NCBI GenBank assembly: GCA_023382935.1
Contig: JAHDXL010000002.1
Span: forward strand, 62,001 to 126,000
Source: Phycisphaerales bacterium
Lineage (GTDB): Bacteria; Planctomycetota; Phycisphaerae; Phycisphaerales; UBA1924
Reading direction: 5' to 3'
DNA length: 64,000 nt
The number at the start of each line of letters is the position of its first letter. Position 1 is the first letter of the stretch. Positions 59,541 through 59,830 of the stretch are shown in pieces. The translations under genes were made by a program, and so were the position numbers. The notes below the pieces were generated by a model. The model ran no database searches and was not told where the DNA came from. It saw only the letters and a program-made list of their open reading frames with translations.

Positions 59541-59566
59541 CAAAAGGGGCGGCGACCTGCCGCCCC
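59541..59566 (-). terminator. Terminator-like hairpin downstream of the FN3-like gene
   Basis: Leftward reading: GGGGCGGC / GCCGCCCC perfect 8-bp stem (59546-59566), then TTTTG (59541-59545). It lies about 270 nt beyond the stop of the 59835-60518 gene, so its link to that gene is uncertain. Confidence 0.5.
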
Positions 59567-59640
59567 GGAGTCTGGAAGCCTCCGCTCCTTGTGCCGTTGA
59601 GTTGTTTCCAGGGGGGGGGGGGGGGGGGGCGGCTGCGGGG

Positions 59641-59830
59641 GGGCCCGGCGGCTGGAAGCCCCCCCCCAACAACCACCCCCATGCCCCTTTGCCTGTTGCC
59701 CGGGGCCCGGGGGTACACCCCCCCCCCCCCCCCCCCCCCCCCCCCCCCCCCGCATCTTGCCGTCCCGGACGTTGGAAGCCGCCCCCCTTCATCCAACCCC
59801 ATGCCCAGTTGCCTGATGCCCGGTGCCTCG
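59641..59830. repeat. Two 70-base units in register, 120 bases apart, separated by a poly-C run
   Basis: Bases 59641-59710 and 59761-59830 align without gaps at 54 of 70 positions by eye, sharing TGGAAGCC and the later GCCTG-TGCCCGG part. A weaker third match to TCTGGAAGCC lies at 59571-59580. Between the two units lies the 34-base C run. Confidence 0.75.

Follow-up and report, generated by a model that had tools for sequence, protein, structure and literature searches.

A very probable assembly scar: facing G and C runs around a corrupted flank copy in a Phycisphaerales genome

The window, the whole 64,000-nucleotide stretch of DNA that was analyzed, lies on contig C2 of an assembly of 35 contigs and 3.72 Mb. 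It holds only three single-base runs of at least eight bases, namely a run of 19 G, a run of nine C (C9, 59659-59667), and a run of 34 C, so the long C and G runs on which the original prediction centered (G19 and C34, Table 1) do stand in the sequence. To their left lie gene 57209-58249, a threonine dehydratase as judged by eye, and gene 58398-59189, which had been called a secreted-protein gene but matches nothing in Pfam or NCBIfam; G19 lies upstream of the latter and beyond a terminator-like hairpin, with 421 bases from the gene’s start to the first G. To their right is the minus-strand gene 59835-60518, whose stop lies 83 bases from the end of C34; the right flank (59752-59834) sits beyond that gene’s stop codon. 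The 227-aa protein of this gene is likewise without a match in Pfam or NCBIfam, and its family has 13 matches in this genome, of which it is one, and 24 matches in the family member G012. The RM locus that had been named as the other neighbor is real, with hsdM placed at 60960-62579 by Pfam/NCBIfam search. Directly upstream of hsdM, and overlapping it by 4 bases, the minus strand encodes an AAA_13 (PF13166) ATPase-like protein at 62576-63844.

The sequence left of G19 has a hairpin at 59478-59503 of −10.3 kcal/mol (z −3.1) and a fold of 59543-59590 of −15.9 kcal/mol (z −3.4); going by its sequence, the hairpin at 59546-59566 within the latter would serve as terminator for the minus-strand gene 59835-60518. 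Similar hairpins were seen by eye near the paralogous places L087, L088, and L037. The REP-like element that follows has a copy near C2:147340-147410, which reads on with GGGGGGGCGGCTTCCAACCGCC at the position that corresponds to the beginning of G19 in the window, and the right flank holds CCGGACGTTGGAAGCCGCCCCCC, the inverted form of the REP-like hairpin. Degenerate short repeats of the type TGATGCCCGGTGCC occur in the window (59800-59828) and at L035, L036, L040, L041, and L043, and repeats of this type recur elsewhere in this genome and in others of the family, e.g., G003 and G011.

Table 1 Features at and around the G19 and C34 runs, in window coordinates.
Feature	Position	Strand	Basis
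Left-flank palindrome GGCCGGTTTCCAACCGGCC, REP-like hairpin	59480..59498	.	Sequence and fold
Terminator-like hairpin GGGGCGGC-gacct-GCCGCCCC, with AAAA before it	59546..59566	.	Sequence and fold of 59543-59590
Left part of REP-like element	59567..59610	+	Alignment with the copy near C2:147340-147410
G19 run, interpreted as where failed forward reads end	59611..59629	+	Inferred from layout
Junk bridge, a corrupted copy of 59750-59837	59630..59717	+	Alignment and mismatch counts
C34 run, interpreted as the complement of the G-run ending failed reverse reads	59718..59751	+	Inferred from layout
Right unique flank with CCGGACGTTGGAAGCCGCCCCCC, inverted partner of the REP-like hairpin	59752..59834	+	Sequence and alignment

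The 88 bases between G19 and C34 (59630-59717) align without gaps to 59750-59837 at an offset of 120, with 62 of 88 positions identical, which confirms the two diverged units 120 bases apart that had been described. The best stretch of the alignment between this piece and the flank matches at 52 of 64 positions, and the local alignment score of 80 for the 88-base piece lies above those of all 500 shuffles (maximum 40); among the 26 mismatches over the full 88 bases, two are transitions. That the units are separated by almost pure C is accurate insofar as C34 stands between them, but the region also contains G7, C9, and other G-rich stretches. Under a model of independent bases at the GC content of the window, G or C runs of at least 19 and at least 34 bases are expected about 0.003 and 2e-10 times per genome, respectively, and the lengths of G19 and C34 are so far above this expectation that chance is excluded.

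An exact search of both strands of the whole 3.72-Mb assembly for 20 consecutive C found G/C runs of at least 20 bases at three places only: the window, C4:148061-148211, and C5:142548-142698. Read along C4, the order is flank, G51, 10 N, 68 bases of low-complexity sequence, C22, and flank, and along C5 there follow one another flank, G21, a 70-base piece with a G8 in it, 10 N, C38, a single G, C11, and flank. Thus, a G-run leads out of the left flank and a C-run leads into the right flank at all three places, with a 10-N gap between the runs at two of them (C4 and C5) and no N at the run locus of the window. The ten N are presumably a gap put in by the scaffolder and not sequence, and the window locus looks like a scar of the same type that has been closed. 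We aligned each between-run piece to its own flanks (300 bases per side, both strands, 200 shuffles each), and on each of the three contigs the piece resembles one of its own flanks at 67-81% identity: the window piece matches its right flank (52/64; score 80 against a shuffle maximum of 49), the C4 piece its left flank (37/55; 38 against 29), and the C5 piece its right flank (45/58; 56 against 39). None of the remaining flank and strand combinations at the three places scored above its own 200 shuffles.

The corruption of the between-run pieces does not look like evolutionary divergence. Only 3 of the 43 mismatches in these flank copies are transitions (window 1/12, C4 1/18, C5 1/13), a deficit with a binomial probability of 4.8e-5 against one third, compared with 169 of 428 mismatches in natural comparisons nearby (Fisher 7.5e-6). 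The natural controls, which are mostly coding, comprise orthologues in G002, a genome of the same genus, and two paralogous places in the same genome; singly, they give 53/128, 59/172, 11/20, and 46/108 transitions, and in a small intergenic control, which compares the left element with its copy at C2:147k, 1 of 5 mismatches is a transition. In the two-colour code, as described in a portion of PMC11140927, C and T bear different labels, A bears both, and G is unlabelled, so that transitions (A-G and C-T) are exactly the changes in which both channels are wrong, and 40 of the 43 mismatches are one-channel changes. Summed over the three places, the two transversion classes number 20 and 20, with complement-type and A-C/G-T-type changes split 6/5 for the window, 12/5 for C4, and 2/10 for C5, where the mismatches include six T to G and four C to A. 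On four-colour instruments, a section of PMC8002175 reports, A overlaps with C and G with T, and the C5 set would fit such overlap as well. Phasing, in which a miscall takes the identity of the neighboring base, gave P values of 0.15 for the window, 0.004 for C4, and 0.67 for C5, and, being inconsistent, was left unused. If the reads behind the window are taken as failing reads, the spectrum speaks strongly for miscalls and less strongly for the instrument; since the transversion classes vary by place, we go only so far as to consider sequencing on a two-colour instrument fairly probable.

Short reads, we posit, failed in the stretch between the left flank (up to about 59610) and the right flank (from about 59752), whichever side they came from. 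On a two-colour instrument, loss of signal within a read is called as G; forward reads would run out into a G-run past the left flank, and the G-run of reverse reads would show up as a C-run ahead of the right flank. Reads covering the right flank at low signal, with ~30% of bases miscalled, would have yielded a false second copy on assembly, and the assembler would have joined the pieces via the homopolymers; C4 and C5 would have followed the same course, with a 10-N gap remaining between the runs. The two-colour poly-G reads described in parts of PMC6291791 and PMC11140927 are similar in that G is called at signal loss, as a G-run leaves each flank here, and nearly all miscalls in the scars change a single channel. 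Unlike plain two-colour poly-G tails, the tails here would have been assembled and joined by a corrupted copy of the flank. As far as the relevant excerpts go, terminal poly-G strings in two-dye reads marked one poor amplicon run and were absent from the authors’ genome libraries (PMC6291791), poly-G tails are much less prominent in good data (PMC6637168), and ordinary errors of two-colour instruments show neither a clear dye signature nor a clear poly-G effect (PMC8002175).

Overall, we judge it very probable that the runs and the repeat are an assembly scar of failed reads and not a real feature. The original prediction had left the choice between an artefact and real hypervariable tracts, and the artefact is borne out by one layout at three of three places, 10-N gaps at two, corrupted copies of each piece’s own flank, and almost no transitions. 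The other option, real and possibly length-variable G and C tracts between gene 58398-59189 and the RM locus, invites comparison with the phase-variable poly-G tracts of Campylobacter, which are usually roughly 8-12 bases long: in both, a G/C homopolymer has as neighbors an RM locus and a gene that possibly encodes a surface or secreted protein. Unlike the Campylobacter tracts, the runs in the window are much longer and form two runs of opposite bases with junk between them, and two genomes of the same genus lack any run of 20. Lone G-runs of 22 and 21 bases inside very large contigs of two genomes of the order (G066 and G075) do suggest that some long runs may be real, but the shared order of G before C, which comes with N gaps at the other places of this assembly, the corrupted flank copies, the mismatch spectrum unlike natural divergence, and the lack of any run of at least 20 bases in the two same-genus genomes leave the hypervariable tracts unsupported, and we regard them as extremely improbable. 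Alternatively, the homopolymers alone could be false and the 88 bases between them genuine, as a diverged repeat of a REP-like unit within a short array of tandem or inverted units. Sites of the core GGCTGGAAGCC are indeed scattered through the genome (18 exact sites, one of them inside the suspect piece, against 9 for a reversed-pattern control), and one two-hairpin copy exists near C2:147340; yet a real unit would have to accommodate a transition count of 2 in 26 mismatches, as well as own-flank copies of the same kind at C4 and C5, and we consider it very unlikely. Very little credence also goes to a lineage with an inverted REP-like hairpin pair bearing a genuine unstable poly-G/poly-C element that short reads rendered badly. 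With the failed-read scar as the preferred reading, a false hypervariable locus is taken out of consideration: the 88-base piece and the runs are almost certainly false sequence on which no biology is to be built, and no statement about hypervariability, or about a link of the runs to hsdM, should be drawn from them.

As to why the reads would have failed in the window, two inverted REP-like hairpins with native tracts of six to seven G may have formed a long hairpin, a cause that we hold to be possible, if somewhat doubtful. It would agree with the relative at C2:147k, which continues with GGGGGGGCGGCTTCCAACCGCC where G19 starts, with the inverted CCGGACGTTGGAAGCCGCCCCCC in the right flank, and with the left-flank hairpin (z −3.4), but shuffles fold as well as the right flank by itself (z 0.04) and as the C4 and C5 flanks (z 0.36, 1.07, −0.47, and 0.03), and yet the scar is present at C4 and C5 too. 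Given this weak folding, the hairpin pair is a guess for the window locus only, and hairpins as a general cause of the scars were rejected on the folding of the C4 and C5 flanks. The earlier suggestion of collapsed GC-rich hairpins is therefore borne out only in part, by the strong hairpin and the REP-like element on the left side, and not by the right flank or by C4 and C5. Allowing two mismatches, the core has 88 sites in the genome versus 46 for the reversed pattern, and its sites have 4-8 paired bases around a loop, four of them within the core itself. The flanks resemble REP/BIME elements in their short GC-rich hairpins, which are arranged in inverted fashion and may share a core that occurs at several sites; in contrast to them, the G/C runs here are no part of such an element and there is no match to a Y1 transposase (PF01797; 0 matches in this assembly, which is rated 95.4% complete, versus matches in 5 of 14 control genomes). 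A REP/RAYT system was rejected: no Y1 transposase matched, and the core sites are about two times as numerous as those of the reversed pattern.

G001 and G002, the two genomes of the same genus, contain no G/C run of at least 20 bases anywhere. In G002, the homologues of genes 59835-60518 and 57209-58249 adjoin, their matched parts being separated by ~300 bases that hold no such runs, and, with gene 58398-59189 missing at this syntenic place, G002 is not a base-by-base control. Across the order, the pattern used found at least one G/C run of at least 20 bases in 84 of 301 sampled genomes, the present one included. Among the matches listed, the run lies at most 250 bases from a contig end at 78 of 98 inspected loci, a limit set after the loci had been seen, and 20 are internal. 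These 98 loci combine 30 fetched by the survey, 60 picked stretches (mostly from run-rich genomes, some with coordinates near 1), and eight from a separate search, with L092 (the same place as L071) and the three places of the window’s own genome excluded; of the 30 that were not hand-picked, 21 lie close to an end of their contig. Runs that point out of contigs consist of C in 58 and of G in 20 cases (n = 78, among the matches listed), a split that we do not use as platform evidence because the pattern, which requires a non-C before the C-run and misses G-runs at right and C-runs at left contig ends, is biased towards that direction. For genomes of the order survey with an excess of C at contig ends, dark G alone may be insufficient. 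Since a real tract exceeding the read length also breaks assemblies, the association with contig ends cannot by itself separate the readings, whereas G followed by C across a break argues against a single real tract, which would give the same base on both sides.

Tract or repeat surveys on the assemblies of this order could be misled by such runs, and we suggest a check for scars that needs no reads, drawn from three places in one genome, namely facing G and C runs, a between-piece that copies a flank, and the near-absence of transitions. A similar scar, with C-runs, is seen in G022 (L099:1090-1331), where a flank is repeated on either side of C-runs and a 10-N gap; its three flank copies beside the C-runs have 5, 0, and 7 mismatches, with 2, 0, and 2 transitions, which is no deficit and too few to judge. 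The single, internal runs in G066 (G22, L071:1499-1520, in a 4.29-Mb contig) and G075 (G21, L093:1526-1546, in a 3.79-Mb contig) may be true long G tracts.
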